Shown here piece by piece: positions 1 through 42,518 of a stretch of DNA of 42,518 nt (the first letter of the stretch is position 1; every line of letters starts with the position of its first letter). The notes beneath the pieces are model-generated. The model was not told where the DNA came from. It saw only the letters and a program-made list of their open reading frames with translations, and did not search any database. Location: IMG/VR virus record IMGVR_UViG_3300044801_000168, positions 1-42,518 of that record; one strand, written 5' to 3'. Position numbers and translations under genes: made by a program. The stretch is from a virus.

Positions 1-795
1 GCTCAGGGAGGCGACGGTGGCGTATCCCCTCTGAGAGAGCAGGGCGATTCCCAGGGCTAGAGCCGGGCTAACTGTGGTAGCCCTGAAGTAGCCAGAGCTT
101 CCGGCCTTGCGGTAGAAGGACCCGTCTCCCGTAAAATATCCGTCCAGCAGGGCCTTGGCCTTATCTGGCGGCAAGGAGAGTACCCACCCCGGTAGGAGCT
201 TGCCGTGCGCATATCGCCCGAAGGGCAGAAGGAACTCATACAACCGTTTCTTCGTAATGTTGAACTTAACGGTTGTTCTCGTCTCGTCCGGATACGGGTT
301 AAACCCGGCCGCGATGATTCTTTTCCTCAATTCTTCAGCTTCTTCGTAGTTGGAGCAGACTATGACACGCCCCTTGCCGTTGTTTTCTGCGAGCCAACCG
401 TCCGCCAAATAGCGTCCTACTAGCCACCACAACTCTGCTGAATGCGGGTCGTCGTCGACGACAGGAAGAACTTGCCCCGCAAAACTGGATTTGGACAAAC
501 AAGATGCGTCCACCCAGTTGGGCCCCGTGAATACCCGCCTATACGCCCCCTTCGCCCCCCTCAAGGGGTCCCATCTCTTGAGTTTTTCACGCGCATAGTA
601 CGGATGCTCGTCCGTAGTGACCGTAGGCAGCATCCCCTGACCGCGCACAAGCCTGCAAGAACCTGCCATGCGGCTTGCAGTAGATGTGATTTTTCTCCAC
701 CGCCCTTTATGGGTGAGGACAAAGTCGCCTATGACCAGCGACTCAATAGGTTTGTAGCCCGCGTAGGTCAAGACGAAGGTGCCCGCCGCGAAGCA
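1..795 (-). mobile_element. LAGLIDADG intein in a C5 methyltransferase (C-terminal end outside window)
   Basis: This intein starts at Cys1 (codon 795-793). Block A is CFAAGTFVLTYAGYKPIESL. Block B carries the T-x-x-H motif (TTDEHP). Two LAGLIDADG dodecapeptide-like motifs follow: LVGRYLADGWL near 420-385 and LLDGYFTGDGS near 150-115. It is therefore a class 1 type intein with a DOD homing endonuclease. The C-terminal blocks F and G (His-Asn) and the +1 residue are beyond position 1. From the insertion point the +1 residue is predicted to be the methyltransferase catalytic Cys itself; that is inference. Confidence 0.88.
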
Positions 796-1014
796 GGGGA
801 ACCCGCCGCTCAACAAGGTGGGGGTTGGCAGATTCCGCTGCCCGACCTCCCTGACGTCAGAGAACCGTTGAACGTTCGGCCAATGTTTCTCTAATACTCG
901 CTTGCAGAAGGGGTTGGCCTCGACCTGGAACAGAGTCTCAAACCCGGCCCACTCGAGGCCCAAGTCCAAGCCGCCCACGCCGCTAAAGAGGCTTCCGTGC
1001 GTGAGTTCGCTCAC
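1..1014 (-). CDS. C5-cytosine DNA methyltransferase interrupted by an intein at the catalytic Cys (partial, runs off window start)
   Basis: The minus strand is open from a GTG at 1014-1012 to the window edge with no stop (338 codons visible). An in-frame TGA lies upstream and an AGGGG sequence lies about 10 nt before the GTG. The first ~73 residues are the N-terminal half of a C5 methyltransferase: SAM motif I (SLFSGVGGLDLGLEWAGF), an acidic residue after strand 2 (QVEANPF), then the lead-in to the catalytic loop, LLSGGFP. The expected PCQ is broken here. After GGFP comes Cys followed by FAAGTFV, an intein start, so the intein sits directly before the catalytic cysteine. The spliced enzyme would restore GGFPC. 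The C-terminal extein lies outside the window. The enzyme would transfer a methyl group from SAM to cytosine C5 in phage DNA. The call is firm for both methyltransferase and intein; the target site is unknown. Confidence 0.9.
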   Translation of the reverse strand, partial: MSELTHGSLFSGVGGLDLGLEWAGFETLFQVEANPFCKRVLEKHWPNVQRFSDVREVGQRNLPTPTLLSGGFPCFAAGTFVLTYAGYKPIESLVIGDFVLTHKGRWRKITSTASRMAGSCRLVRGQGMLPTVTTDEHPYYAREKLKRWDPLRGAKGAYRRVFTGPNWVDASCLSKSSFAGQVLPVVDDDPHSAELWWLVGRYLADGWLAENNGKGRVIVCSNYEEAEELRKRIIAAGFNPYPDETRTTVKFNITKKRLYEFLLPFGRYAHGKLLPGWVLSLPPDKAKALLDGYFTGDGSFYRKAGSSGYFRATTVSPALALGIALLSQRGYATVASLS

Positions 1015-3318: not shown

Positions 3319-4385
3319 TCACCTTGCGAGGGAGCGGAGGACGGCGTCCACCACGGGGACGCACACGGAGTTGCCGACCTGCCTGTAGGCCTGGGCGTCG
3401 TTGTCGGGGAGGATGTAGCGGTCGGAGAATCCCTGTAGGCGGGCGCACTCCCTGGGGGTCAGCAGGCGCAGGCCCTCGGGGGCGTCCACGGCGGGCGTGG
3501 AGAACGTGGCGACGGTCGGGGAGATTCCCTTGACGGAGTAGACCTTGTCCTGCTGCCTCGGGAGGCCGCTTGGGGTGTCGCCGTACATGATCGCCAGGGG
3601 CTCTATCCTGCCCGTGCGGACCTGGGGCTTCGCGGACATGTCGTACAGCCACTTGATCGCGTCGTAGCGCGGCGTGCCCCTGGGGAACGGGTGGTTCGGC
3701 TGCTTGCCGCCCGCCCTGGCGTTGTGCAGGACGGTGCGGTTCCTCCAGACGTTCTCAATGAGGTACTTCGGGTCGCCCATCTGCGGCTGGAGGATGTCCT
3801 CGACGGCCGGGTGGGTGTAGCGTGACGGCGACGGCCACGCGAACCTGTCGGGCAGGTCGGCGCGGACGCCGACGAAGAACATGCGCTTGCGCTGCTGCGG
3901 GACGCCGAAGTCCACGGCGTTCAGGACCCCGTGGTGCACGCTGTACCCGGAGGACCTGAGGTTGTCCACGATCGTCTCAAGCACGGGCGAGCCGTCCTTG
4001 TTCCGCATGAACTGGATGCCCTGGACGTTCTCGAAGACGAAGTTCGCGGGCTGCTTGGCCCGCAGGACGCGGACGAGCTCCAGGAAGAGGTTGTCCCTGG
4101 TCTCCGCGTCCCCCACGGTCTTGCCGTTCTTGAGGAACCAGCGCCCGTTCTTGGAGAACGGCTGGCACGGGAAGCCGCCGAACAGCACGTCGTGGTCGGG
4201 AATCTCCCTGTCCTCGACCTGCGGATGTCGGCGAGGGAGGAGATGCCGAAGTTCTTGCTGTAGGTGACGGCGGCCTGGGGGTTGTTGTCGATGGCCATCA
4301 CGCACTTGGCCCCGAGACCGTAGACGCGCTCCGCCCCGAGGCTGAAGCCGCCGATCCCGGAGAAGGCGTCAACGTATGTGAGCAT
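3319..4385 (-). CDS. C5-cytosine DNA methyltransferase with a one-base frameshift
   Basis: Nearly all C5 methyltransferase motifs are present in two frames. Frame one (from ATG 4385) gives motif I (YVDAFSGIGGFSLGAERVYG) and motif II (AIDNNPQA). Frame two (to TGA 3319) gives motif IV (GGFPCQPFS), motif VI (FENVQG), motif VIII (QQRKRMFFVGVR), a target-recognition region, motif IX (LTPRECARLQGF) and motif X (QVGNSVCVPV). The frames meet at about 4221-4224, where one extra base in ATCCGCAGG would give a continuous 355-residue enzyme. As written it is broken. It may be a true pseudogene, a programmed shift or a sequencing deletion. It lies in a minus-strand operon with the next two genes downstream. 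Confidence 0.85.
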
Positions 4386-7601: not shown

Positions 7602-10600
7602 TTACCTGCGGCGTCCGCGAGAGCGCCTGTCCCACGGGCTGATCGGGGCCGTGCCCATGAAGGTTCCGGCATGTTTTTCAGTGGTTTTGAGCTTCTCCAT
7701 GACCCTGAGGGTCTGCATCGGCACGCCGTCCATGCAGAGGAGCGGAGCTGGCGGCTTGTGCATCTGCGACTGCATGAGCAGGCTGAGGCCGGAGGGGTCC
7801 ATGTACAGGTTGCCCTCCTCGATCAGCCACCTCTGCGCCAGGAAGGCGCACAGCATGGCGGCGTCCGCCATGTCGTCGTGGGCTCCCTTTTCCAGCGGGG
7901 CCTGCACGCGAATCTGGTACTTGGACGCGACCTCCAGCTCGACGAGCTTTAGCTCTTGGATGAACTTCGGGTTGTACGGGAACGCGCAGAGCTTGTTCTC
8001 GATGTAGCCGCGCAGGGCGTACGCCATCTGGGAGTTGATCGCGGGCGTCAGGTTGACGAGCTCCATGTTCTTGATCTCGTTCAGCTCGAGGAGCTGGACG
8101 AGCTGCTGGCCGCCGTGCTGGTCGGTCGCGCCCTTGAAGCAGGGCAGGCACTTGTTCATCTCCCGCAGCCACGCCAGGATGTCCTCAAGCGGGAGGACCT
8201 GGTGGTCGCGGTACTTCTGCTGGCCGATGCCGTTCACGACGCCCGGCCAGGAGCCGACCTCGCCGACCATCATGCGGTCGATGTAGTCGTACACCAGCCT
8301 GATGCCGCCGTGCGGGCCGCCCGGCTCAAGGTGCGCGATGGCGAGGGCGCTGGCGTCGTTCGTCATGCCCAAGTCAAAGCCCCAGAAGTAGTTCACGCCG
8401 ATGCTCGCCGGGACGAAGCGCGTGACGTTGATCCTCGCCGTGCTCATGACCGGGAGCCCCTTGTCGTCCCACTGCACGTCGACGCACTCCTTGACGGCCC
8501 GCTCGGTCACGTACGACTCGGACGACTCAAGGAACTTCCCCGTGTACTCCGCCTTGAACGTGAGCGGGTTCTTCTTGTGCTCGGACTTGAGGAATCTCGG
8601 GAGCAGCTTCGGGTTCATCTCCGCGCTTGACGTGTTCAGCGTGAAGATGCCGGACGCCACGCCCTCGTCGAGCGCGAGGCGGTGGAGCTCGTACATCTTG
8701 CCGATCTTCTTGAGGGGCGAGGAGATCGACAGGATCATGGAGTCCTGTATCGCAATCATCTCGTTCTTGTCCTCGAACTCAAGGACGCTGTCCTCCGTCT
8801 CCTCGAAGGCGGTGTCCTCCTGGCCGAACGTGGTGCCGTAGTGCTGGACGGTCGGCTCCTCCTCCCTCGTCTCGTGGTGGAAGTCGCCGGTCGCCGGGGT
8901 GGCGGCCGCGTACATGTCGTCCGACGTGCTGCCCTTGGCGGAGCGGAAGTGGGCGAACTCGTCCAGCGCCAGGAACACGGAGGACGGGGAGCGGACGGCG
9001 TTCGTGGTGCAGTTGTGAACCGCTGCGAGTTTGGTCAAGAACGACTCTGTGTTCTCAACGCTGATGTCCACTACCCGGCCCGTTTTCCCGGAGGGCCCTA
9101 TGCTGGTCACCTTGGACCAGTAAAATTCCTGGTCCCCTATTTTCTGGAAAAACCGGCAATGGCGGTCCTGCTTGCAGAACTCAACATACCAAGACTCGCG
9201 GTGAAAGACCCCGCGCTTATCAGTGTACTCATCCCTGCGTGCTACCGACGGGCGCAGGCCAGCCTGCACGCCAAGCGCGAACAAGGAATAGGCGAGTTTC
9301 TTAGACACAGTGGGGCCGATGTCTCTGCCCTCGCAGCCGTCGCCCTCCAGCCAGCCGCGTATCAGGGCCTTTTGGCACTCTACCGGCCAGTACAGCGCCT
9401 CAAACGGAATGCTTTTTTCAGCGCGTCCGCTACCAAACAAATGTTTCAGACTGCGCACTAACTCCACGCTGTTGCACATCACCCGGCAACCGTTGCTTTT
9501 ATTGCCAACGATGCGCGACGGCAGGCCAAGCTCCGACGACAGTGTCTCCTGCACGAATTTCGCGAGCGTGGCTTTCTCGCTGATGTGAAAATCCCAATCT
9601 ATTGTGCGGCTGGGGGAGCCCGCAACAGAGCCTTCTGCCAGATACAGACCCCACAACCGGCACATGACGGGGCTGATCGCGAAGGCGGGAATAGCCCTAG
9701 CCGCGCTTCCGGTGTGCGTATACTCATGGCCGCAGCAGGAGCCCGTGTATGTCTTTGTCCTGAACGCTTCACTGTCCAGAGAATAGGACTTTCGCAGGCT
9801 TTCAGACACGCGGGGGAACAGCACGTAGTCCCCCTCAGAGATGCCTGACGCCGGACCCTCCGTCGGTTTCAGGGCCGTGCGCTTCTTGGCGAACCTTATT
9901 TTTGAGCGGCCGTCAATCGTATCCGTCAGGCGTCCACCGCGGTCGCGCCTGGTCAAATACGGCAGGTTAGCCCTTGCCTCCCCGGCCGGAACATAGATGC
10001 AGGTGTGGTTTGACGTGAGCAGCAGGGGGTCGCCGCGAAAGTTGGCCGTCTCAAGCGCCCACAGCTCCTTCTCACTGTACTGTTTATGCGTCACCCGCTG
10101 CCTGCTGCCGAAGCCGTCCGGCACAGCGCCGCCAACCTCCATTTCCTTGAGAGGGACCAGCCCGGATGCGGACCATATCAGCTCGTTTTCTTCTATGCAG
10201 GGCAGGCACGACACGGTGATGGTCGGGTTGATGTCGCGCTGGTCACGGTCGGCGAGCGAGACGAAGGAGAGGTCCTTAGTGTTGTTGTCCTTCAGGAACG
10301 GCGCGAACCACGACGCCCTGTTGACCTGCTCGCGGAGCTTCTTGAACAGCCTGCCCGCGCCCTTCTCGTCCTGCGCCAGGAAGGTGAAGTCGATGTTGGA
10401 GCCGCTGACCAGGCCGAAGTACTCCTGCGGGCTCCTCAGATTTAGTAACAGATACAACTTGTAAGCCGCGATTGCTGCTACCAACTCTGAATTATGGGTG
10501 ACGTTGAAATTTTTTCCGAACAGATAAAGTCCGGTGGGGTTATCCGTGGTGATGCATCGCATAGACCGCTTGCCAACGGGTTCTACGGAAACTATATAGC

Positions 10601-12083
10601 GCCAATTTTGAGTATCCTTAACTTTCTTTGGTAAACGAGCGAGTTTACGTGGAAGACGAAAGACCGGAAGAGTCCCGGTCCATTTCACTATGTAAGCTGT
10701 TTTACACTTTTTCCTTCCCGTAGGGCTATTCGTGCATACCGGGATTTTTTCAGACCAATGAGGCTTCAACCCAAGGGAAGCAGCGAGGTGGTACACCCCT
10801 TCAGCAAGGCTCTTGTTTGTGTTTGAGAATTCGCATTGACCGTCAAGCATGCACGAACCATCGGTATCCATTAACCCTTGCAGCAAAGCTAATCGTTGTT
10901 CTTTAGAAGCCCACAAGTATCCATGGGGAATGTGCTTGTTTTGGACTACACCCAATTCACGAAGTTGGGGGACTACGCCTCTGATATAATGCGCTTTGTC
11001 AATTGTTGAAGAATGGGTTACGGTATACCCCGCCTTTTCAACCTCTTCCCAAATTCCTCGGTCAACCCCAGTAAATTCGCCACTGTTTTTACTCCGATCT
11101 CCAAGCCAAGCTCCAAACACGTAAGGATCAATGAGTAAGCTACGTTCGAATAATTCGACAGGCTTAGGCAGAGGCACAGCGTGATTAGCTTGAGGTTTTT
11201 TGTCAAAGGTGCTAGTCTGAACTAGAAGAGTATTTCTAATTTCTTCTGTCGTCCTAACCATGCCTGTGCAGGGTTGTAGCGGATGGTGACCGTGGCGAAA
11301 GGGCATAGGCTCCCCCTTACTTATTCCACGTGTTAAATGATTACGCTGAGCGGATGGTGCTGACGTCCCACAACCACAACCGCAAGCCCCAGCAGTCGCC
11401 GCCATAACTTTTGGTCTACGAATAGTTTTTCTGCGCTCGGTTCGGTCGTATGTCAGCCAGAGATGCCCGCTGTGGGTTAGAATAGATGTGCCGTCATCGA
11501 ATGAGACCCTGTACGCTTCTTCCTCAACGATTGGGTGGGCTAGAACTACTTTGTGAACTTTTCCGTCCTCGCCGAAAATCTTATCCCCATCCTTCAAATC
11601 TCCGTTTCTTACAAATCCGTCAGGTGTGGGAACGGGCTCATTCACATCAATTAGTTTTCCCCCACGTCGACCGGCGAAGACGCACGCCTCGTTGAAGCCC
11701 CCGTAGGGCGTCCCGACGTTCGGGATGTCCTGCCAGTTGTCGACGTTGCAGCGCCCCTCGTTGAAGCAGATGTGGAGGTACTCCGCCTCGGTGACGTCGG
11801 GCCGGAGCTTCTTCTCGCGGTAGACGTCCCACATCGGGACCTTGCCCCAGTCGGGGATGCGCTTGGACCACTCAGGCACTTTGTCGAACGCCACGCCGTA
11901 GATCGCCTTCGCGATGACGCGCTGCACGGGGCGCAGCACGATCCCGACCCCGTTGGGGCCTTCGATGAAGTCTATGGCGTCGAGTAGTTTTGACGGGTCC
12001 TCAACGCCCTCTGCGATCGACTGGGCGAAGACCGAGTTCTGCGCGGCCTTTGAGAACCTCTTGTTCCTGCTGATAGGAGGCAT
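7602..12083 (-). CDS. terL: Terminase large subunit with two inteins (1493 aa precursor, 709 aa after splicing)
   Basis: The exteins form a packaging ATPase-nuclease. The Walker A is built across an intein: FAGRRGGK (to residue 143), then SELVAA (from 532). A hydrophobic strand ending in Asp-Glu (VFLALDEF) just after the second intein is the Walker B. The RNase H-like nuclease follows: GFDLGMTNDASAL with the first Asp, and HDDMADAAMLCAF with the last Asp near the C-terminus. The intein at residues 144-531 is class 3 and the one at 629-1024 is class 1. The spliced length is somewhat long for TerL. ATG at 12083 has a weak ribosome binding site, and a terminator lies 43 nt upstream. The protein pumps DNA into the prohead with the portal, which is not recognised here. 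Confidence 0.95.
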   Translation of the reverse strand: MPPISRNKRFSKAAQNSVFAQSIAEGVEDPSKLLDAIDFIEGPNGVGIVLRPVQRVIAKAIYGVAFDKVPEWSKRIPDWGKVPMWDVYREKKLRPDVTEAEYLHICFNEGRCNVDNWQDIPNVGTPYGGFNEACVFAGRRGGKLIDVNEPVPTPDGFVRNGDLKDGDKIFGEDGKVHKVVLAHPIVEEEAYRVSFDDGTSILTHSGHLWLTYDRTERRKTIRRPKVMAATAGACGCGCGTSAPSAQRNHLTRGISKGEPMPFRHGHHPLQPCTGMVRTTEEIRNTLLVQTSTFDKKPQANHAVPLPKPVELFERSLLIDPYVFGAWLGDRSKNSGEFTGVDRGIWEEVEKAGYTVTHSSTIDKAHYIRGVVPQLRELGVVQNKHIPHGYLWASKEQRLALLQGLMDTDGSCMLDGQCEFSNTNKSLAEGVYHLAASLGLKPHWSEKIPVCTNSPTGRKKCKTAYIVKWTGTLPVFRLPRKLARLPKKVKDTQNWRYIVSVEPVGKRSMRCITTDNPTGLYLFGKNFNVTHNSELVAAIAAYKLYLLLNLRSPQEYFGLVSGSNIDFTFLAQDEKGAGRLFKKLREQVNRASWFAPFLKDNNTKDLSFVSLADRDQRDINPTITVSCLPCIEENELIWSASGLVPLKEMEVGGAVPDGFGSRQRVTHKQYSEKELWALETANFRGDPLLLTSNHTCIYVPAGEARANLPYLTRRDRGGRLTDTIDGRSKIRFAKKRTALKPTEGPASGISEGDYVLFPRVSESLRKSYSLDSEAFRTKTYTGSCCGHEYTHTGSAARAIPAFAISPVMCRLWGLYLAEGSVAGSPSRTIDWDFHISEKATLAKFVQETLSSELGLPSRIVGNKSNGCRVMCNSVELVRSLKHLFGSGRAEKSIPFEALYWPVECQKALIRGWLEGDGCEGRDIGPTVSKKLAYSLFALGVQAGLRPSVARRDEYTDKRGVFHRESWYVEFCKQDRHCRFFQKIGDQEFYWSKVTSIGPSGKTGRVVDISVENTESFLTKLAAVHNCTTNAVRSPSSVFLALDEFAHFRSAKGSTSDDMYAAATPATGDFHHETREEEPTVQHYGTTFGQEDTAFEETEDSVLEFEDKNEMIAIQDSMILSISSPLKKIGKMYELHRLALDEGVASGIFTLNTSSAEMNPKLLPRFLKSEHKKNPLTFKAEYTGKFLESSESYVTERAVKECVDVQWDDKGLPVMSTARINVTRFVPASIGVNYFWGFDLGMTNDASALAIAHLEPGGPHGGIRLVYDYIDRMMVGEVGSWPGVVNGIGQQKYRDHQVLPLEDILAWLREMNKCLPCFKGATDQHGGQQLVQLLELNEIKNMELVNLTPAINSQMAYALRGYIENKLCAFPYNPKFIQELKLVELEVASKYQIRVQAPLEKGAHDDMADAAMLCAFLAQRWLIEEGNLYMDPSGLSLLMQSQMHKPPAPLLCMDGVPMQTLRVMEKLKTTEKHAGTFMGTAPISPWDRRSRGRRR
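9012..10199 (-). mobile_element. Class 1 LAGLIDADG intein in TerL just before Walker B (396 aa)
   Basis: It begins with Cys1 (CIEENELIWSASG) after the extein SCLP. Block B has T-x-x-H (LLTSNHTC). The DOD motifs are LWGLYLAEGS and LIRGWLEGDGC. Block F is RVVDISVENTESF and it ends AAVHN followed by +1 Cys. The extein resumes with TTNAVRSPSSVFLALDE. It is not similar to the other TerL intein and is closer in base composition to the phage, suggesting a separate and older arrival. Confidence 0.92.
10491..11654 (-). mobile_element. Class 3 intein in the TerL P-loop (388 aa)
   Basis: It starts with LIDVNEPVPTPDGF and so lacks an N-terminal Cys, Ser or Ala. It shows the class 3 W-C-T set: Trp two residues after the block B His (HSGHLWL), Cys in block F (SMRCITTD) and Thr in block G (NVTHN). 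The +1 residue is Ser, which restores GRRGGKS on splicing. LAGLIDADG motifs are FGAWLGDR (block C, with the usual Gly-Asp-Gly altered to Gly-Asp-Arg) and LLQGLMDTDGS (block E), so nuclease activity may be weakened. Base composition is clearly more AT-rich than the flanking terL. Confidence 0.92.
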
Positions 12084-24899: not shown

Positions 24900-25748
24900 T
24901 TATGCTCCCGCCTTTGCACGTTTTGCTAACGAAATCGCCTGCCTTTGCTGCAACGGCATCGGGCCATGTTTTTCTCCAGTGCGAGCACGGTTAGCGCATG
25001 CCCGGCTGCAATGCTTTCGGTTATTCATGTCGGCAAAAGTGCCGCTTCTTGATTGCGTCGGCATTATGACGGCACCACAAATTTCGCATAGTTTCGGGCT
25101 TTCCAAATACGTTGCGAGAGCCTGTTCATAATTTGCTTTTGTTCTCGCTGCCGACTTTGCTCTGCGTTCCGGGCGTTGCCACAGCTTTCGACTGGCAGCG
25201 CCGATCTTTGCCCTCACTTCTGGCAACGCCAACTTGGCTCTTCCCGCTGCCAACGCTTCAAGCTGCACAGATGTTACAGGTTTTCCACGCCGCATGCTGC
25301 TAAATTTTGCCCGAACTGCCTCAGAACGTTTCATCCCTAAATGTGCCTCGCCAATCTTCTTGGCATGTTCCGCTGACTTAGGTTTCCCACGATGTGCGGC
25401 ACTGAGTTTTAGCCGTGTTTCAATCGAAGCTTTTCTCCCACGCATAGGTGCCCCGGCTTCTGGAGAAATGTTATACCCAGTATTAACAGCATCAAAAGCG
25501 TTCAGTGCTAACTGTTCTTGTTTCAGTAAATCTACTTCTGGACAAAAAGCAAGCGTTTCGAATTCAAATGCAGTTTCCCCGTACTTGTTCCAAGCATGCT
25601 GTAACTTAAGGCTTGGAGAAAATCTCTTCCTAAGCTCACGCAAATGTTCATTTTTTCTACGGTGTAAGTGCTTAGAGCTACCGATATACGATTGGTTCGT
25701 TACTGTGTTGAACCAACGGTATACCCCGCAGTTAAAAAAATTGTTCAT
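24900..25748 (-). CDS. GIY-YIG homing endonuclease with NUMOD3 repeats (282 aa)
   Basis: The nuclease domain opens CGVYRWFNTVTNQSYIGSSK, the GIY/YIG pair, with an Arg (RRKNEHLREL) and a Glu further on (CPEVDLLKQEQ). Residues ~100-180 hold NUMOD3-like DNA-binding repeats (RGKPKSAEHAKKIGEAHLG and similar). The C-terminus has a zinc site (CEICG... HCSRACANRA). The ATG at 25748 overlaps the previous gene's TGA (TGATG), and the TAA lies 1 nt before the next gene's ATG. It is strongly AT-rich compared with the phage backbone. It is a member of the Seg/I-TevI-like group. Confidence 0.9.
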   Translation of the reverse strand: MNNFFNCGVYRWFNTVTNQSYIGSSKHLHRRKNEHLRELRKRFSPSLKLQHAWNKYGETAFEFETLAFCPEVDLLKQEQLALNAFDAVNTGYNISPEAGAPMRGRKASIETRLKLSAAHRGKPKSAEHAKKIGEAHLGMKRSEAVRAKFSSMRRGKPVTSVQLEALAAGRAKLALPEVRAKIGAASRKLWQRPERRAKSAARTKANYEQALATYLESPKLCEICGAVIMPTQSRSGTFADMNNRKHCSRACANRARTGEKHGPMPLQQRQAISLAKRAKAGA

Positions 25749-26068
25749 CAAAACTCCAAGCTATCCAAAAGATTTGCTAAAAACGCCGCAGGCTTGTCGT
25801 CTGGGGCTGCCGGAATAGAGTCCCCGTCATTCACCTCATTACCAACAAGTTTCACTATCTTATTACCGCTTAATTTCCAAAAATCACGAGTCGCCGGGCA
25901 TTCGTAGATTGATCCCGCGACGCGGCGCATCGAGAACTGGTCGATGTACCGCTGCACGTCCATGGGGATCGGGGACGCCGACGCGTAGTGGTTCTTGGAG
26001 AAGATCGGCTGGGTGCTCTCGCCCGCCTTCAGTCCGTGCGCCGCCTTTGCGTATATCTTCCTGCTCAT
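25748..26068 (-). CDS. Hypothetical protein (106 aa)
   Basis: ATG at 26068 has AAGGGA about 8 nt upstream. The product begins MSRKIYAKAAHGLKAGESTQ and has an ordered centre (MDVQRYIDQFSMRRVAGSIYECPATRDFWKL). The last 50 residues are acidic and AT-richer than the first half, possibly altered by the GIY-YIG insertion at its 3' end. It lies 5 nt after a virion-type gene, so a head or tail accessory role is plausible. No family is recognised. Confidence 0.62.
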   Translation of the reverse strand: MSRKIYAKAAHGLKAGESTQPIFSKNHYASASPIPMDVQRYIDQFSMRRVAGSIYECPATRDFWKLSGNKIVKLVGNEVNDGDSIPAAPDDKPAAFLANLLDSLEF

Positions 26069-31988: not shown

Positions 31989-32653
31989 TCCGTTTCACAA
32001 AGACTAATGGGTTTTTATGCAGGGAGTGTATTGCTGGGTCAATTCGGTCAACGGTAAAGTCTACGTAGGGTCGGCGAAAAACCTCGCCAAACGTAAAACC
32101 GAACACCTACGCCTACTCAAGAAAGGTGTTCACCACAGTCTCCATTTCCAACGAGCCTGGAACAAGTATGGACCTGATGCCTTTGAGTTTAACATCCTAG
32201 AACCTGTAGAGGATGAAATCTGGCTTCGAGCGAGAGAAACTGCATGGCTCAACCGCCTAGAATCTTTCAAAAGTGAAATTGGTTATAACGTCGTGCGTGA
32301 CGGATGGTCGGCTGCACAATTCGAACCTACCGAACGCCGTAAAGAAGCATGGAAGAAGAACGGCGAACGAAGGCGTGGAGTCAAAGACTCTTTCGAAGTA
32401 CGGGCGAAAAAGAAAGCTGTTTCTAAGCTGACAGCACAAACCGAAAAATTCAAACAAGACATAGCCGTTAGGCGCGTTGGCAAAGTACATTCAGAAGAGG
32501 CGCGTGCAAACTTGCGTGCGGCATGGGCTAGAAAGAAAGCCCGTGGATACAAAGCTCCGTTAACATTCACTACAACAGGGAAGACCCCTTGGAATAAAGG
32601 TAAAACTTTCTCCGAAGAATCCCGTCAAAAGATGTCCGTTTCACAAAGACTAA
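31989..32653 (+). repeat. 19-bp exact direct repeat bracketing most of the GIY-YIG gene
   Basis: TCCGTTTCACAAAGACTAA occurs at 31989-32007, 10 nt before the GIY-YIG start, and again at 32635-32653 inside that gene's NUMOD3 region. The second copy codes SVSQRL; the first is not in the gene's frame. It may mark a partial duplication of the cassette end or a site recognised by the enzyme. Confidence 0.6.
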
Positions 32654-32775
32654 GTTGGACTCCTGAACGCCGGGCTGCGCAAGCAGAACGTGCGCGTAAA
32701 CAAGGCTTAGCAAATCTAAAAAATCAACGCAGAACTGGAACAGTGGAGACAGTCCGTGTTGTGGAGGTGCTGTGA
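32017..32775 (+). CDS. GIY-YIG homing endonuclease with NUMOD3 motif (252 aa)
   Basis: The protein opens MQGVYCWVNSVNGKVYVGSA, the GIY/YIG pair at the very N-terminus, then KRKTEHLRLL and HHSLHFQRAWNKYG, a layout shared with the GIY-YIG enzyme at 24900. The middle is basic and helical. A NUMOD3 motif (TPWNKGKTFSEESRQKMS) lies near residue 190-210. No ribosome binding site is seen before the ATG. The gene is AT-rich. Its TGA (32773-32775) overlaps an ATG at 32774, placing it exactly at the start of the intein-bearing HTH gene. Confidence 0.9.
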   Translation: MQGVYCWVNSVNGKVYVGSAKNLAKRKTEHLRLLKKGVHHSLHFQRAWNKYGPDAFEFNILEPVEDEIWLRARETAWLNRLESFKSEIGYNVVRDGWSAAQFEPTERRKEAWKKNGERRRGVKDSFEVRAKKKAVSKLTAQTEKFKQDIAVRRVGKVHSEEARANLRAAWARKKARGYKAPLTFTTTGKTPWNKGKTFSEESRQKMSVSQRLSWTPERRAAQAERARKQGLANLKNQRRTGTVETVRVVEVL

Positions 32776-32778
32776 TGA

Positions 32779-34554
32779 GTGAGAACACTCCTTACTTTCG
32801 ATTCTATAACTAGTGCCCGGTCGATCCTCCTGACGGAGGAGGAGCAGCTTGAGGGCTGCACCACGATCTCCTTGGAGACGCAGCAGGACCTCTCCGAGGA
32901 GGACATCCTGACCTACGTCCTGGAGAACTTCCCGGAGTTCCTCCGCATGCTCCGCTTCCTGAAGAAGGAGGACCAGGAGCTCCTGCTTTCCTACTATCTG
33001 TTGAGCAAGATGCTGGACGTGGATACGCCCATCCCGACTCCTGATGGGTGGAAGCGCAATGGCGATATTCAAGACGGCGATTGGGTATTGGACGAGACTG
33101 GTAAACCGACTAAAGTCCTAAAGGCGCATGCGGCTCATTACCCGGAGGTGTCTTACGAAATAGAACTGGATAGTGGGGAAAAAATCTACGCCGGAAACAG
33201 TCATCTTTGGTTGACCTCTACTTACCGGGAGAGACAGAACGCTAAACATAGGAAAGACCGCATCCTGCACCAGACAGTGCGTAACACCCAAGAACTCTTC
33301 GAGACGCAGGAATACTGCGCGAGCGGTAAAACAAACAAGCTCTTAGCCAACCACCACATCACACTACAGACCGCCCTTCAGCTTCCAGAAGTTTCTCTTC
33401 CGGTCGATCCCTACTGCCTTGGGGTTTGGCTAGGGGATGGCAATAGCGACTGTGGGATCATTACCGCGCACCAAGACGATGCCAAGGAAATCCTGTCGCA
33501 TTTCTCGAAAGCGGGGTATAAGTGGCATGCCAATGAAAAAGACCAGCAACGTTGGCATGTGCTTGGACTTTACCCCGGCTTGAGGAAACTGGGGGTAATC
33601 AAGAACAAGCACATACCCGCCGTGTACTTGCGTGCCTCCTTCGCTCAACGGTTAGCTCTTTTGCAAGGCCTTTTGGATGCTGACGGGTGGGTTAACAAGG
33701 ACGGAAACTGCGGGTTTTCTAACACACGTCTTGCGTTGGTCTCAGAGACGAGCGAGCTTCTATGGTCGCTCGGTATCAAACACCAATTCCAGCCTTACAA
33801 AGCGTCTTGCACTTACAAAGGGGAAGAACGTTTTAGCGATAGCTGGAAAACCTGCTTCACAACCGTACTCCCGTGCTTCCGCATGGAGAGAAAGTTGTCG
33901 AAACAAAAGCGTGATAAATTAAGCGGAGCCTCGCTCAGCCATCATATCGTCGGTATTAAAAAAGTGGGGCCGAGATTGATGCGTTGCCTAGCCGTTGACT
34001 CGCCCTCCCATCTATACCTGTGCGGGAAAAGCATGGTTCCCACGCATAACACCCAGAACACCCTCGCCGTCATCCACAAGTCCACCCAGACCGTCTGCTC
34101 GTTCCGCATCCGCATGGCCGTCAAGACCCTCGCGTGCTTCATCATGATGGGGGAGCCGACCGTGGACAGGATGCACGGCATCCTCACGCGGGCGGGCCTG
34201 GAGAAGAGCCTGGACAAGATCGACCTGTCGGAGATCGTCGACCTGTACGCCAAGACCAGGTCGTTCCAGAGGATCGCGGAGGTCCACCACCTGCACAGGC
34301 CGGACATCCGCCGCGCCATGAGCCGCGCCTCCAAGCAGCTCATGGAGTCAAAGGACGCGCAGGAGCACGCGCTCGGGGCGTACATCCACAGCCTGATAGA
34401 CAAGGCGAACCCGTCCGGGGTGGGGTACAGCAAGAGGAAGGTCTCGAAGCTCGGCCACATCTACCGCACGGACCCGCCGCTGCTCGGGGAGTTCAGGAGA
34501 AAAGTTGAGGACCCCGACTTCGACCACATGTTCATTTCCCGAGCGAACCGTTAG
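32779..34554 (+). CDS. Sigma-region-4-like HTH protein carrying a class 3 intein (591 aa precursor, 244 aa spliced)
   Basis: The extein N-part is acidic (LSEEDILTYVLENFPEFLRM). The intein cuts between ...LLLSYYLLSK and TQNTLAVIHKSTQTVCSFRI, so the spliced product reads as a sigma region 4-type HTH. A second HTH-like stretch (SFQRIAEVHHLHRPDIRRAM) follows. It is a likely phage transcription regulator. The GTG at 32779 has no ribosome binding site. A better one, GGAGGTGCTGTG, precedes an ATG at 32774 whose frame stops after 12 codons, in the reading MSENTP...; one added base would join it to this gene. The GIY-YIG insertion may have changed the start. Confidence 0.75.
   Translation: MRTLLTFDSITSARSILLTEEEQLEGCTTISLETQQDLSEEDILTYVLENFPEFLRMLRFLKKEDQELLLSYYLLSKMLDVDTPIPTPDGWKRNGDIQDGDWVLDETGKPTKVLKAHAAHYPEVSYEIELDSGEKIYAGNSHLWLTSTYRERQNAKHRKDRILHQTVRNTQELFETQEYCASGKTNKLLANHHITLQTALQLPEVSLPVDPYCLGVWLGDGNSDCGIITAHQDDAKEILSHFSKAGYKWHANEKDQQRWHVLGLYPGLRKLGVIKNKHIPAVYLRASFAQRLALLQGLLDADGWVNKDGNCGFSNTRLALVSETSELLWSLGIKHQFQPYKASCTYKGEERFSDSWKTCFTTVLPCFRMERKLSKQKRDKLSGASLSHHIVGIKKVGPRLMRCLAVDSPSHLYLCGKSMVPTHNTQNTLAVIHKSTQTVCSFRIRMAVKTLACFIMMGEPTVDRMHGILTRAGLEKSLDKIDLSEIVDLYAKTRSFQRIAEVHHLHRPDIRRAMSRASKQLMESKDAQEHALGAYIHSLIDKANPSGVGYSKRKVSKLGHIYRTDPPLLGEFRRKVEDPDFDHMFISRANR
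33010..34050 (+). mobile_element. Class 3 LAGLIDADG intein in the HTH protein (347 aa)
   Basis: It starts MLDVDTPIPTPDGW, with no N-terminal nucleophile. It shows W-C-T: Trp after the block B His (GNSHLWL), Cys in block F (LMRCLAVD) and Thr in block G (VPTHN). The +1 residue is Thr. The DOD motifs LGVWLGDGNS and LLQGLLDADGW are intact. Much of it parallels the class 3 intein of TerL (NKHIP, QRLALLQGL, the C-terminal blocks), so the two share a recent ancestor. It is AT-richer than the exteins. Confidence 0.92.
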
Positions 34555-35463: not shown

Positions 35464-35638
35464 GGGCGCGTGCAGAGCCATGCCCCCGTGCTTCAGGAAC
35501 TTACGCCTGCGCTTGGACGGCCAATCATTCCCCTTGTCTGGCATAGGTTTAATGTACTTCGGGCAGCGTCTTTTAGTCCGGGCCAAGGAACCCTCCTGGT
35601 TTCTGGGGCTTGTGGTATTAAACACGAAGGAGAAACGA

Positions 35639-36283
35639 ATGAAAGTTCTGGTGGGGTGCGAAATGTCGGGCAGGGTCAGGGACGCCTTCGCGGCGCTGGG
35701 GCACGACGCGTGGAGCTGCGACATTCTCCCGTCGGAGAGGCCGGGCAATCACATACAGGAGGACATTCTGCTCCACCTGAACGACGGCTGGGACCTTGCG
35801 GTCATGCACCCGCCGTGCACACACCTAGCGGTCAGCGGCGCAAGGCACTTCGCGAAGAAGCGGGCGGACGGCAGGCAGCAGCATGGCATCGACTTCTTCA
35901 TGGCCCTTGCAAACGCCACGATCCCTAAGATCGCGGTTGAGAACCCCGTCTGCATCATGTCGGGGATATGGCGCAAGCCGGACCAGATCGTCCAGCCGTG
36001 GATGTTCGGCGAGGAAGCGTCCAAGACGACATGCCTGTGGCTCAAGAACCTCCCGCTGCTGGTGCCCACGAACATAGTGGGGAGGGGTGAATTCGTCGAC
36101 GTGGGGAACGGCAAGAAGATGACGAAGTGGTACGCGGACACCTTCTACAATCTGCCCAAGGAGCAATGGTCGGTGGCGCGTAGCCGCACGTTCCAGGGCA
36201 TGGCCAACGCGATGGCCGCGCAGTGGGGCGGCGCGGTAGCCCCGGAGACCCCAGCGAGTCCACCTGCGGAAATGTCCGTTTAA
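35639..36283 (+). CDS. Phage-type cytosine DNA methyltransferase-like protein (214 aa)
   Basis: ATG at 35639 has AAGGAGAAA 4 nt upstream; the frame is open further upstream but without a site. The start, KVLVGCEMSGRVRDAFAALGHDAWSCDI, is a SAM-binding motif I/II. HIQEDILLHLNDGWDLAVMHPPCTHLAVSG carries a PPC loop in place of PCQ. IAVENPVCIMSG gives the ENP strand. The C-terminus has RSRTFQGMANAMAAQW. This short family is common in phages and is usually annotated as DNA (cytosine) methyltransferase. The substrate is unproven. It is first in a run of three methyltransferase-type genes. Confidence 0.8.
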   Translation: MKVLVGCEMSGRVRDAFAALGHDAWSCDILPSERPGNHIQEDILLHLNDGWDLAVMHPPCTHLAVSGARHFAKKRADGRQQHGIDFFMALANATIPKIAVENPVCIMSGIWRKPDQIVQPWMFGEEASKTTCLWLKNLPLLVPTNIVGRGEFVDVGNGKKMTKWYADTFYNLPKEQWSVARSRTFQGMANAMAAQWGGAVAPETPASPPAEMSV

Positions 36284-36570: not shown

Positions 36571-37323
36571 GTGCCAGCCTACTACAACGAGAACAACCCG
36601 TTCGCCTGCGAGTGGCTGAGAGGCCTCATCAAGGAAGGACGCCTGCCCGATGGAACCGTTGACCCAAGAAGCATCTCCGACATACGACCCGCCGACCTCG
36701 ACGGGTTTGACCAGTGCCACTTCTTCGCCGGGATCGGGGGATGGCCCCTCGCCCTCAGGCTCGCAGGATGGCCAGACTCACGCCCAGTGTGGACCGGGAG
36801 CTGCCCCTGCCAGCCCTTCTCCGTCGCCGGGGAGCAGGGCGGAGCGTCCGACGAGCGCCATCTCTGGCCAGTTTGGGAAAGGCTCATCCGCGAGCGCAGG
36901 CCTCCAGTCATCTTTGGCGAGCAGGTTGAGGCTGCGATCCGCCACGGCTGGCTCGACCTTGTGGCGTCTGACCTGGAAGGACAAGGCTACGCCGTCGGGT
37001 CGGCGGTTCTTACGGCAGCAGGCGCAGGAGCTCCCCACAGGCGAGACAGGCTGTATTGGGTGGGGGACGCCGACGGCGGGCGACAAGGGCAGCTACTCGG
37101 GCCCGATCAAGTCGAGGCTGGGGAGCGAGGCGCGTCAACTTTTTGGGACGGAGCCGAGTGGACAGGGTGCAGGGACGGGAAACGAAGGCCAACTGAACCC
37201 GGAGTTCGTCCGCTGGCTCATGGGGTTCCCGGCAGGCTGGGGCTCCTCCGCGCCTACGGGAACGCGATCGTCCCGCAGGCAGCGGCCGAGTTCGTGAGCG
37301 CCTTCACGGCGGCGCAGTATTAG
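36571..37323 (+). CDS. Phage Dcm-type C5-cytosine methyltransferase (250 aa)
   Basis: The GTG start gives MPAYYNENNPFACEWLRGLI, the usual N-terminus of this phage subfamily. Then HFFAGIGGWPLALRLAGWPD (motif I), WTGSCPCQPFSVAG (motif IV with catalytic Cys), a FGEQV segment in place of ENV (motif VI), GAPHRRDRLYWVGDA (motif VIII) and a C-terminal RLGLLRAYGNAIVPQAAAEF (motif X). It is shorter than Dcm because the target-recognition part is small. Much of its C-terminal half is also read in a second frame (36650-37297). It lies 9 nt after the HNH stop. Confidence 0.9.
   Translation: MPAYYNENNPFACEWLRGLIKEGRLPDGTVDPRSISDIRPADLDGFDQCHFFAGIGGWPLALRLAGWPDSRPVWTGSCPCQPFSVAGEQGGASDERHLWPVWERLIRERRPPVIFGEQVEAAIRHGWLDLVASDLEGQGYAVGSAVLTAAGAGAPHRRDRLYWVGDADGGRQGQLLGPDQVEAGERGASTFWDGAEWTGCRDGKRRPTEPGVRPLAHGVPGRLGLLRAYGNAIVPQAAAEFVSAFTAAQY
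36650..37297 (+). CDS. Second-frame ORF overlapping the Dcm-type gene (215 aa)
   Basis: This ORF lies wholly inside the methyltransferase gene in another frame. Its C-terminal half is not random: STLWRLTWKDKATPSGRRFL, then GCIGWGTPTAGDKG, then GQLNPEFVRWLMGFPAGWGS, segments I recognise from phage proteins linked to Dcm genes (the LNPxFxRWLMGxPxxW signature). The N-terminal part is Ser/Pro/Gln-rich and may be shadow sequence. It could be translated on its own or added to a partner by frameshifting. Recognition is from memory, not from a search. Confidence 0.5.
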   Translation: MEPLTQEASPTYDPPTSTGLTSATSSPGSGDGPSPSGSQDGQTHAQCGPGAAPASPSPSPGSRAERPTSAISGQFGKGSSASAGLQSSLASRLRLRSATAGSTLWRLTWKDKATPSGRRFLRQQAQELPTGETGCIGWGTPTAGDKGSYSGPIKSRLGSEARQLFGTEPSGQGAGTGNEGQLNPEFVRWLMGFPAGWGSSAPTGTRSSRRQRPSS

Positions 37324-37328
37324 ACTCA

Positions 37329-38351
37329 GTGCATTTCAAGGAACAACCTTTGATCTACGGAAGCGTATGCTCTGGAATAGAAGCCGCATCCATGGCCTGG
37401 GAGCCTCTAGGCTGGTCCTGTGCATTCGTATCGGAGGTCGAGTCCTTCCCGAACGCCGTGCTCGCGCACCGCTATCCCGACGTCCCCAACCACGGGGACA
37501 TGACAAAGTTCAAGGAGTGGCCTGATGGAAACATTGATCTCCTCGTCGGAGGAACCCCGTGCCAGTCTTTCTCAGTCGCAGGACTCAGGGGCGGACTGGA
37601 TGACCCGCGTGGTAACCTCATGCTCACCTATCTTTCAATCGCTGATCGCTACCGCCCCCGCTGGCTCCTCTGGGAAAACGTCCCCGGTGTCCTGCACAGT
37701 TCGGGAGGACGGGACTTTGGGTCCCTCCTCGGGGGGCTGGCGCAGCTCGGGTACGGGTTCGCCTACAGAGTTCTGGACGCTGAATACTTCGGAGTGCCCC
37801 AGCGACGCCGTCGTGTCTACGTTGTCGGGCATGCTGGAGGGGACTGGCAGCGTCCCGCAGCGGTACTATTTGAGCAAAGTAGCTTGCAGGGGTGTCCTGA
37901 AAAGGGCGGCGCAGTACGGCAAGGCGCTGGACCCGCCGGAATTCAGGGCGGCGCTGGAACTGATAGCGGAGGAGACACTGGAGCAGGTGCGGGAGACTCT
38001 GCCGCCGAAGCCGCAGCCCCAGCCAGAGACTTCAGGCCAGGACGGGACAACACCCTCGCCTACGCCTGGCAGATCGGATTCGGAATAGACCGCGCCGACA
38101 CCGAGATTTGCAGCACTATGATCAAGAACCAGGTCCCGGCGGTCATGACGGGCGGCCAACTCAGGCGCGTCACGCCCGTGGAGGGCGAGAGGCTGATGGG
38201 GTTCCCAGACGGCTACACACGCGCCCCGTGGAAGGGCAAGCCAGCGGAGCAGTGCCCCGACGCGCCGAGGTTCGCCGCGCTGGGGAACAGCATGGCCGTG
38301 CCTGTGATGAGATGGATCGGTTCTAGGATCGCAGCGGCGGACGCCCTTTAG
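37329..38351 (+). CDS. Dcm-type C5-cytosine methyltransferase (340 aa)
   Basis: The GTG at 37329 is the longest start; a TTG at 37350 has AAGGA 7 nt upstream and fits the family's usual start (LIYGSVCSGIEAASMAWEPL). Motifs: I as above, SEVESFPNAVL (II), GGTPCQSFSVAGLRGGL (IV), LLWENVPGV (VI), FGVPQRRRRVYVVGH (VIII), RRVTPVEGERLMGFPDGYT (IX) and FAALGNSMAVPVMRW (X). Residues ~180-240 are a low-complexity Gly/Ala linker where a second frame carries a recognisable segment. It overlaps the stop of the minus-strand gene by 4 nt. Confidence 0.92.
   Translation: MHFKEQPLIYGSVCSGIEAASMAWEPLGWSCAFVSEVESFPNAVLAHRYPDVPNHGDMTKFKEWPDGNIDLLVGGTPCQSFSVAGLRGGLDDPRGNLMLTYLSIADRYRPRWLLWENVPGVLHSSGGRDFGSLLGGLAQLGYGFAYRVLDAEYFGVPQRRRRVYVVGHAGGDWQRPAAVLFEQSSLQGCPEKGGAVRQGAGPAGIQGGAGTDSGGDTGAGAGDSAAEAAAPARDFRPGRDNTLAYAWQIGFGIDRADTEICSTMIKNQVPAVMTGGQLRRVTPVEGERLMGFPDGYTRAPWKGKPAEQCPDAPRFAALGNSMAVPVMRWIGSRIAAADAL
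37525..38088 (+). CDS. Second-frame ORF overlapping the Dcm-type gene (187 aa)
   Basis: The ORF is inside the methyltransferase gene in another frame. Near residues 85-150 it reads TLNTSECPSDAVVSTLSGML, then SVPQRYYLSKVACRGVLKRA, then GKALDPPEFRAALELI, a helical segment I recognise from many phage proteins next to Dcm genes (Y-L-S-x-x-A-C-x-G-x-L-x-R-A). Over the same DNA the methyltransferase frame is only Gly/Ala linker, suggesting selection acts on this frame there. ATG at 37525 has no good ribosome binding site. Confidence 0.55.
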   Translation: METLISSSEEPRASLSQSQDSGADWMTRVVTSCSPIFQSLIATAPAGSSGKTSPVSCTVREDGTLGPSSGGWRSSGTGSPTEFWTLNTSECPSDAVVSTLSGMLEGTGSVPQRYYLSKVACRGVLKRAAQYGKALDPPEFRAALELIAEETLEQVRETLPPKPQPQPETSGQDGTTPSPTPGRSDSE

Positions 38352-40062: not shown

Positions 40063-42518
40063 TTAATTTACGTCTTCCTCGGAGGCCAGACGCGCCTCCT
40101 CGGCGGCGAGCAGGTCGTCCGCCCCGGCCGTGCTGTAGAGGGAGCTTTCCCTCATGAGGAACTCGGCCTGCGCGAGCTCAGGCTGGATCGTCCGGCGCTC
40201 CGGCGCGTTGCCGTCCTCCTGGCCGCCCGGCATGAGCGCCACGGACGTCGAGGGCTGCATCTGCTGCTGGCCCGGCTTCATGAGGCTCTGGTTCTGCACC
40301 ACGTTCGGGCTGACGACCGGGGGAGCGCCCGCCGCCTCCTTCGAGCCCCTGATGCCCATGCTGCGCATCATGTCCAGGTCGCGTTTCCCCGGCGCGGCTG
40401 GCATGTCGCCACGGTTGCCCTGCGCGTCCTCGTACCATATCTCCCACTCGTTGCCGTAGGCGAGCTTGTACTCGCCGACCAGGTGCTCGGCCGAGCTCAG
40501 GTCGTCCGCCGTGTCGATCTCCTCGGTCTTCCCCCTGTACCTGCCGTAGATCGTGTAGCCCTCGCCGGGCTCGTCGCTGCCTTCCTCGCTTGTCTCGCCG
40601 TCCACGCGGAACTCCGCCTTGCGCGACACCTCGCCCGGGTCGTGTGTGCTGTTGTACTCGTCGCACATCTCGCGGGCCTCCTCGTACGACAGGCCAGCGC
40701 CGAGCTGCTCCTCGTCCGCGCCCGGGTTCGGCACCAGGCGTCCGCGCTCGACGCGCCACCAGTCGCGTACGAAGACCTCATATGTCTTCCCTGCGGCGGT
40801 CTTCTCCTCGGCGTCGGCCTTCTCGTTCTCGATCGCGTCGTCCAGCTCAGGCGTGGACTCAACCGGGAGCGCCTCGTCCTTGTAGCCCGCGCCCTCCTTC
40901 TCCATGTCACCCTCACCCTCAAGGACGTCCTTGCGGAGCTTCTGCTGGCCCAGCTCGCGCTCCAGCATCTCGTCCCTCGCCGCTGGCTCTCCGAGGAACT
41001 CCTTCACCTCGTCCAGGTCGTCCGTGGTCTTGGTCACCTGCGGATACCCGCCCTTGACTCCGGGATTGGCCTGCCACACGCCGTAGCGCGGAAGGGAGCC
41101 GACGGAGCCCTCAAGCGAGATCATCTCCTGCCTCGCGCCGAAGTCCGTGACGAAGCCCCGCTCGTTCCTGAACACCACGTCCAGCGACGCCTGCTTGGAC
41201 GCCAGGACGCCCGACTCCTCGTTCGCCGTCCCGGCGGGGACGTCGACGATCTTGGGCACGACGTCCGGGGTGCGCGGCGCGGTCGCGGGGGCGTTCGGGC
41301 TGTGCGGCCCGGCCGTCTGGTCAATCGCGGGCGCGACGGCCATCGGCTCCTTGCCGCCGGGCGAGTTCGGGTCGGTGACGTTCTGCTCCTGCATCGTGAC
41401 CGTGGTGTTGCCCGCGCCCTGCGCCTGCTTCCTCATGATCTCCTCGACGTGCCTGAAGTTCGGGCTGATCTTCCACTTCGGGACGCCGCTCTCGTCCGTC
41501 GCGACGATACCGCTCTCCATGTTGGAGCAGTCCGCGCCGTACTCGTCGAACATCTGGTCGGTGACGAGCTGCGCCACGCGGACCATGTCCTCGGGCGTGC
41601 CGTCGTACTGCCCGCTCAGCATGCCGAGCCTGCGCCCGTCGTCGTTGCAGACCTCGCGCACGACCGTGTTCGGGGAGGTCCTTTTCTTCGCCAGGCCAGC
41701 GCCCTGCTTGGTCATCGCTGCGTAATTCAGGCAGTTATCACAGAGGAATTGCCTCTCCCCTGCGGGGGTCCGCCTGCCGGTGGCCGGGTTCTTGCAGGAA
41801 CGACCCTTGTGGTTGGGGCACTCCCTGCTCTCGCAAAAACAGCGCCCCGTGGCTTCGTAGGGGCTTTTCGCGCCTGTTTTTGCCGCCTCCGGCGCGGACT
41901 TCTTCTTCCAGTCCCACGCGGCGGAGGCGGACTCCCACATCGTCCACAGCTGGCGCTTCGTGGGGCGCTTGAGGGTCTGCGTCGCCACGAACGCCGCGAC
42001 CTCGTCGATCGTGGGCTCGTGGTCGACCTCCCTCACCACCCAGAGGCGCACGTTGCGGTCCTGGAGCCCGAGGTCGTGCTCGTCGAACTTGGACGCGAGC
42101 CTCGGCTGGTACAGCTCCGTGGTGTCCGCCTCGTGCATCGGCCTGCCCGTGTCAGGGGCGTAGTCGTCGTCGGGGCGGATGCCGTTGTAGAAGTCGTGGC
42201 CGAGCATGGACTCCTTCTCCATGCCGCCGCCCTCGAACGCCTCGGGGTAGAAATCCCTCCATTCTTGAAGTATTTCACCTTCTTGAGCGGCTGTCCGCAG
42301 GCCACTATATCCCTCTTGCGTGAGTTCGTTTTCTAAAAAACGGCCACATTTAGCACAGTGGTGGGGAACGTCGTCTCTCACGCTGTAGAAAGGACCGTCA
42401 GGAATGCGCGTCACATCACCGGCGCACTTGGCGCAGTATGTGTTCCCGTTGTATAAATACTCCGCGACGCCGGGGTTGTACGCGGTCTTGAGCAGGGCGA
42501 ACTTCTGCTGCACGGAGG
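40063..42518 (-). CDS. Large zinc-binding modular protein (at least 816 aa, N-terminus outside window)
   Basis: The frame is open to the right edge, so the GTG at 42513 is probably not the start. Modules: a YCAKC...CAKC zinc site (first ~55 visible residues); ~220-260 a Cys-rich site (CFCESRECPNHKGRSC, then LCDNCLNY); ~270-345 an alpha/beta domain (GRRLGMLSGQYDGTPEDMVR); ~575-640 a domain EVFVRDWWRVERGRL... ARDEYN-type with Cys and His; ~650-690 YTIYGRYRGKTEEIDT; then MRSMGIRGSKEA, a motif shared with the 1450-aa protein (LRSMGIQGGKQA). It belongs with the giants at 12719, 16997 and 22637. The function is unknown. Confidence 0.75.
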   Translation of the reverse strand, partial: SVQQKFALLKTAYNPGVAEYLYNGNTYCAKCAGDVTRIPDGPFYSVRDDVPHHCAKCGRFLENELTQEGYSGLRTAAQEGEILQEWRDFYPEAFEGGGMEKESMLGHDFYNGIRPDDDYAPDTGRPMHEADTTELYQPRLASKFDEHDLGLQDRNVRLWVVREVDHEPTIDEVAAFVATQTLKRPTKRQLWTMWESASAAWDWKKKSAPEAAKTGAKSPYEATGRCFCESRECPNHKGRSCKNPATGRRTPAGERQFLCDNCLNYAAMTKQGAGLAKKRTSPNTVVREVCNDDGRRLGMLSGQYDGTPEDMVRVAQLVTDQMFDEYGADCSNMESGIVATDESGVPKWKISPNFRHVEEIMRKQAQGAGNTTVTMQEQNVTDPNSPGGKEPMAVAPAIDQTAGPHSPNAPATAPRTPDVVPKIVDVPAGTANEESGVLASKQASLDVVFRNERGFVTDFGARQEMISLEGSVGSLPRYGVWQANPGVKGGYPQVTKTTDDLDEVKEFLGEPAARDEMLERELGQQKLRKDVLEGEGDMEKEGAGYKDEALPVESTPELDDAIENEKADAEEKTAAGKTYEVFVRDWWRVERGRLVPNPGADEEQLGAGLSYEEAREMCDEYNSTHDPGEVSRKAEFRVDGETSEEGSDEPGEGYTIYGRYRGKTEEIDTADDLSSAEHLVGEYKLAYGNEWEIWYEDAQGNRGDMPAAPGKRDLDMMRSMGIRGSKEAAGAPPVVSPNVVQNQSLMKPGQQQMQPSTSVALMPGGQEDGNAPERRTIQPELAQAEFLMRESSLYSTAGADDLLAAEEARLASEEDVN

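Follow-up and report, generated by a model that had tools for sequence, protein, structure and literature searches.

An interrupted methyltransferase gene at the end of a viral contig

The window analyzed here is the whole 42,518-base virus contig of IMG/VR record IMGVR_UViG_3300044801_000168, the end of which falls inside a predicted intein. A minus-strand open reading frame (ORF 1014..1) starts with GTG, comprises 338 codons and is still open at position 1; at the base composition of the window, the chance of 338 open codons is approximately 3e-6. The predicted features of this ORF are listed below, with residues numbered along the ORF.

796..1014, minus strand: N-extein, residues 1-73, the start of a C5-cytosine DNA methyltransferase, from motif I LFSGVGGLDLG to motif IV GGFP (PF00145, TIGR00675)
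1..795, minus strand: class-1 intein, of which 265 residues lie before the contig edge truncates it (Hint_2, LAGLIDADG_3, 24-50% identity to complete same-site inteins)
793..795, minus strand: intein Cys1 (C74), opening block A CFAAGTFVLT directly after the motif IV Pro (P73-C74 invariant in alignments)
604..615, minus strand: block B T-D-E-H (TxxH) with splicing residues Thr and His (T134 and H137 invariant across aligned relatives)
394..423, minus strand: first LAGLIDADG-type motif VGRYLADGW, acidic residue D205 (alignment; fold match to LAGLIDADG endonucleases)
118..147, minus strand: second LAGLIDADG-type motif LDGYFTGDG, acidic residue D297 (LAGLIDADG_3; D297 invariant in alignment)

The first part of the ORF corresponds to a C5-cytosine DNA methyltransferase, of which it contains the N-terminal quarter. 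Residues 7-74 match positions 4-71 of the DNA_methylase profile PF00145 (E-value 2.8e-13), the N-extein matches TIGR00675 (E-value 8e-14), and M.HhaI is also matched by sequence. Both motif I (LFSGVGG) and motif IV (GGFP followed by Cys), which mark membership in PF00145, are found. In the precursor, the Cys after GGFP is Cys1 of the intein, and the extein's own Cys lies past the contig end. The same applies to motifs VI-X (ENV, QRR/RxR and the target recognition domain), which are found in complete relatives.

The junction reads LLSGGFP/CFAAGTFVLT (here and below, a slash marks the splice junction), with Cys1 at window position 795. Hint_2 covers residues 73-124 (E-value 1.1e-7) and LAGLIDADG_3 residues 286-326 (E-value 1.3e-5). 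Of the features that define class-1 inteins, the position-1 nucleophile with block A (C74 after Pro73) and block B TxxH (T134-D-E-H137) are present; block G (His-Asn followed by Cys, Ser or Thr) falls past the contig end in the window and reads VHN/C in 16 of 16 complete C5-methyltransferase relatives. Two LAGLIDADG motifs with their acidic residues, D205 and D297, are kept, and the fold matches I-DmoI, PI-SceI and other homing endonucleases. The AlphaFold model of the fragment has a mean pLDDT of 77, and its best PDB matches are the TliVMA and PI-SceI inteins.

Alignment with a complete relative (L002) places some 75 further intein residues past position 1. The C-terminal intein blocks and the C-terminal half of the gene remain unseen, because the contig stops inside the intein and a search of viral contigs for the exact 22-mer at its edge revealed no second contig containing it. 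The other end of the contig was considered as the missing half and rejected (ORF 40063-42516, minus strand, has no methyltransferase match). Searches for sister phages with the neighboring ORF 1552-2556 and with ORF 40063-42513 found none, and the first 25 kb of the window have no near DNA match among phages.

Complete relatives define the splice junction

Complete inteins were retrieved from viral contigs, genomes and phage records. All 16 complete C5-methyltransferases, which belong to phages or prophages of widely differing hosts, share one arrangement, in which Pro or Asp precedes Cys1 and the intein ends in VHN/Cys. In each of the 16 junctions the +1 Cys is the motif IV catalytic Cys. The residue before Cys1 is the motif IV Pro, with Asp in its place in phage Lana; around the +1 Cys the sequence is PCQ, or SPPCK (Erwinia phage) and PDCTH (Lana). 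Each of these genes is one continuous reading frame that encodes a LAGLIDADG endonuclease, the terminal His-Asn, the +1 Cys and two in-frame extein halves.

The relative L002 illustrates how precisely the halves fit. The N-terminal half of the window gene stops at PF00145 position 71, and the C-terminal half of L002 resumes at position 71 (residue 412). Residues 74-411 of its structural model cover the full length of solved inteins, starting at their residue 1 (Z 20-28). The two flanks, taken together, match M.HhaI (Z 17), mainly through the N-terminal half and the C-terminal helices, because the C-extein is poorly predicted (pLDDT below 50 for residues 455-708). The initial annotation had proposed an intein exactly before the motif IV catalytic Cys, and the Hint and LAGLIDADG blocks of the window together with the abutting PF00145 halves bear this out. 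Its second proposal, that the +1 nucleophile is the catalytic Cys of the methyltransferase, is seen directly in the relatives and by extension is expected of the window copy.

Same-site inteins come from phages of Proteobacteria, Firmicutes and Actinobacteria, with sources including Escherichia, Mannheimia, Pseudomonas, Erwinia, Lactobacillus, Propionibacterium and the human gut, as well as metagenome-assembled genomes (MAGs) labelled Deinococcales, Spirochaetaceae and Flavobacteriales. Given this breadth, and the polymorphism in P1-like phages described below, the initial description of the arrangement as unusual is not supported.

Intein-bearing methyltransferase genes can decay, as Mannheimia phage 587AP2 (L012, 2477-4313) illustrates. 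Its intein and HN/C junction are intact, but the core of the methyltransferase that should follow CQ has been lost, and the remaining methyltransferase part lies in another ORF. This leaves a splicing element in a decayed host gene.

Alleles with and without the intein in P1-like phage-plasmids

Both states of the site are found in P1-like relatives, which bears on mobility. Reference P1 and Salmonella phage SJ46 read GTPCQAFSIAG without an intein, and P1 record OP279344 reads GTP/C...VHN/CQAFSIAG with one. In E. coli, the intein-free dmt allele is 2019 bp long and the intein-containing allele 3042 bp, a difference of exactly 1023 bp or 341 codons, and, across the junction, the predicted spliced product of the P1-like Dmt is identical to the protein made from the intein-free allele. 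For the window gene itself, the known counterparts are limited to the intein-free homologues L007 and L008. A dmt match was found in 493 of 5426 E. coli genomes and the intein in 152, all at 99% identity or higher; the resulting share of about a third is approximate, since not all 493 matches span the site.

Divergence between intein-containing and intein-free P1 alleles peaks beside the insertion, at 0.114 in the first 30 bases upstream, and falls to about 0.005 beyond 150 bases. Co-conversion of the flanks is therefore a possibility, although only a suggestive one, because pairs of intein-free alleles also diverge more beside the insertion (0.057).

The P1-like intein (OP279344, RCS47 and many E. 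coli plasmids) resembles that of the window in lying between Pro and the catalytic Cys, in combining Hint and LAGLIDADG domains and in ending HN/C, with approximately 30% intein identity. As a further difference, the P1-like Dmt also contains a C-terminal adenine methyltransferase. Intein-bearing P1-like genes are annotated simply as methyltransferases, mostly just as Dam family methyltransferase; in E. coli plasmid pMRSN129130_p2 (L034) the intein-containing dmt is annotated as two broken pseudogene pieces.

Intein and extein histories

The intein and the extein of the window gene have different nearest relatives. The closest inteins lie in unrelated methyltransferases, first that of L031 (49.8% identity, extein 18.8%), followed by L002 (48.6%, extein 31.9%), and the closest exteins belong to the intein-free viral methyltransferases L007 (61.6%) and L008 (52.1%). 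No correlation between intein identity and extein identity emerged among 14 complete genes (Spearman 0.14, p 0.18); near the window, the intein tree is weakly supported. The intein family also occurs in other proteins, namely the terminase-like L030 and the N4/N6 methylases of mycobacteriophages (Job42, 35.5%). At the level of sequence identity, these comparisons show that intein and extein histories are uncoupled, and the distribution of the intein is consistent with an element that spreads horizontally and favors one site.

Other methyltransferases and homing elements on the contig

Three further C5-methyltransferases, all predicted to be intein-free, are encoded on the contig.

3319..4385, minus strand: second C5-methyltransferase, GGFP/CQ, in two frames (PF00145, E-value 2.4e-57)
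36571..37323, plus strand: C5-methyltransferase, GSCP/CQPFS (PF00145, E-value 7e-19; phrog_363, E-value 3e-72)
37329..38351, plus strand: C5-methyltransferase like the C5 part of P1 Dmt, GGTP/CQSFSVAGLRGGLDD (PF00145, E-value 1e-46; phrog_116, E-value 2e-86)

In the gene at 3319-4385, the N-terminal part (MLTYVDAFSGIGG) and the motif IV part are in different frames, with the shift between motif I and motif IV, which reflects a frameshift or an assembly error. The gene at 37329-38351 resembles P1 Dmt, the type that carries the intein elsewhere. Next to the two plus-strand genes lies another predicted DNA methyltransferase with a PPCTH motif (35480-36283, plus strand; phrog_757, E-value 2e-65). 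Because the contig codes for three more C5-methyltransferases with an uninterrupted PCQ motif, one of them frameshifted, methylation of the phage as a whole need not depend on splicing; the initial proposal of such a dependence would hold for the interrupted enzyme alone.

Homing elements are abundant on this phage fragment, in the form of both inteins and free-standing GIY-YIG endonucleases. The large terminase ORF (7602-12083, minus strand) contains two more intein-like insertions, at 9012-10199 and 10491-11654. One lies in Walker A, GRRGGK/LIDVNEPVPTPDGF...VTHN/SEL, and has no position-1 nucleophile but a block F Cys as in class-3 inteins; the other precedes Walker B, TVSCLP/CIEENEL...AVHN/CTTNAV. 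A class-3-like intein is also found at 33010-34050 (plus strand), K/MLDVDTPIPTPDGW...RCLAVDSPSHLYLCGK...PTHN/T, inside ORF 32779-34554, which codes for a small protein with no assigned function; the terminase label that PHROGs gives to this ORF probably stems from its intein alone. Two free-standing GIY-YIG type homing endonucleases are located at 24900-25751 (minus strand) and 32017-32775 (plus strand).

Proposed mechanism and alternative explanations

In our view the insert is very probably a selfish class-1 intein that is mobile, encodes a LAGLIDADG homing endonuclease and occupies a recurrent site, the boundary in motif IV between Pro and the catalytic Cys; the same high confidence extends, jointly with this reading, to the window gene being an orphan phage C5-cytosine DNA methyltransferase, the C-terminal half of this copy being supplied by analogy. 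Since many unrelated phages, P1-like phages of E. coli among them, have the same arrangement, it represents an ordinary mobile element and no new kind of system.

The chemistry of class-1 splicing is well established: Cys1 attack, acyl transfer to the +1 Cys, Asn cyclization and closure of the junction. We infer that the protein splices, that its precursor is inactive, that the intein homes and that the window gene has a C-terminal half, and envisage the following course. Cys1 would attack the bond that links it to Pro in an N-S acyl shift, and the N-extein would then pass to the +1 Cys, the catalytic Cys of the methyltransferase itself. Asn cyclization would free the intein, and the chain would close to ...GGFPCQ..., an intact active site. 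Judging from the position of the insert, splicing must rebuild the active site of the interrupted methyltransferase. Before splicing, the precursor would have no catalytic loop and should be inactive, because its +1 Cys is the catalytic nucleophile, as the chemistry of M.HhaI implies. The endonuclease would cut intein-free alleles at the conserved sequence, whereupon the intein would be copied in; it would be kept because imprecise loss would wreck the enzyme. The two retained LAGLIDADG acidic residues make homing plausible.

An insertion that ties enzyme activity so strictly to splicing might instead serve as a regulatory switch, with splicing responding to redox state, metal, DNA substrate or the stage of infection and thus timing methylation. 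For phage inteins, a regulatory role of those located in functional motifs has been argued, with cysteine chemistry as one of the routes (PMC5050341). We nevertheless regard a switch as unlikely: the presence/absence polymorphism in P1-like phages, the horizontal movement and the kept endonuclease fit a selfish element dispensable to the host gene, and the other C5-methyltransferases of the contig have no intein. It is similarly improbable that a maintained switch withholds cytosine methylation in the phage and in P1-like prophages until condition-dependent splicing frees the enzyme's own nucleophile; if it did, the timing of methylation would be set post-translationally.

We also give little credence to the window copy being a pseudogene, in which the intein no longer splices or the C-terminal half is missing. 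The position of the C-terminal blocks and C-extein past the contig edge would be compatible with decay, as would the frameshift in the neighboring C5-methyltransferase and the loss of the C-extein core in 587AP2, but the 338-codon frame is open, and Cys1, Thr, His and both acidic residues of the endonuclease are intact. Finally, it is very improbable that the insert is a Hint domain of the bacterial intein-like or hedgehog type, which would cleave the enzyme without splicing it, or a split intein whose other part is supplied in trans. Pfam assigns just a generic Hint domain and the C-terminal part is out of view, but the relatives are uninterrupted frames that encode a LAGLIDADG endonuclease, the terminal His-Asn, a +1 Cys and both in-frame extein halves.

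Relation to known systems and significance

The selfish class-1 intein proposed here has several known counterparts. The N4/N6 DNA methylases DNMT-1/2 of mycobacteriophages (PMC5050341; Job42 family) and an actinophage methylase (PMC9957025) likewise carry inteins that are patchily distributed in a phage orphan methylase, and the Job42 intein is homologous to that of the window. In Job42, however, both the methyltransferase family and the site differ (MHV/C...KN/CPLQF), and the insertion point is not a C5 catalytic Cys. The class-1 LAGLIDADG inteins TliVMA and PI-SceI (VMA) share the splicing residues and are the solved structures matched over the whole intein of L002, but differ in host protein, site and sequence (16-19% identity). 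M.HhaI and other C5-methyltransferases (PF00145) share the extein fold, the order of motifs I to IV and the PCQ active site; the intein is absent from M.HhaI.

It is established that inteins occur in functional motifs of phage DNA enzymes, N4/N6 methylases among them (PMC5050341; PMC9957025), and a review places intein insertions at functional sites, catalytic ones included (PMC7765530). We found no description of a catalytic-Cys intein site in C5-methyltransferases in the open papers searched. In the predicted proteins compared here, inteins are found repeatedly at the catalytic nucleophile of C5-methyltransferases encoded by phages, in sources as different as P1-like phage-plasmids of E. coli, phages of the human gut and phages from the environment. 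Annotation pipelines label these intein-bearing genes plain methyltransferases. The P1 allele pair, near-identical around the junction save for the intein, is a ready laboratory system in which to ask whether a splicing element in the active site controls DNA methylation or has no bearing on it.
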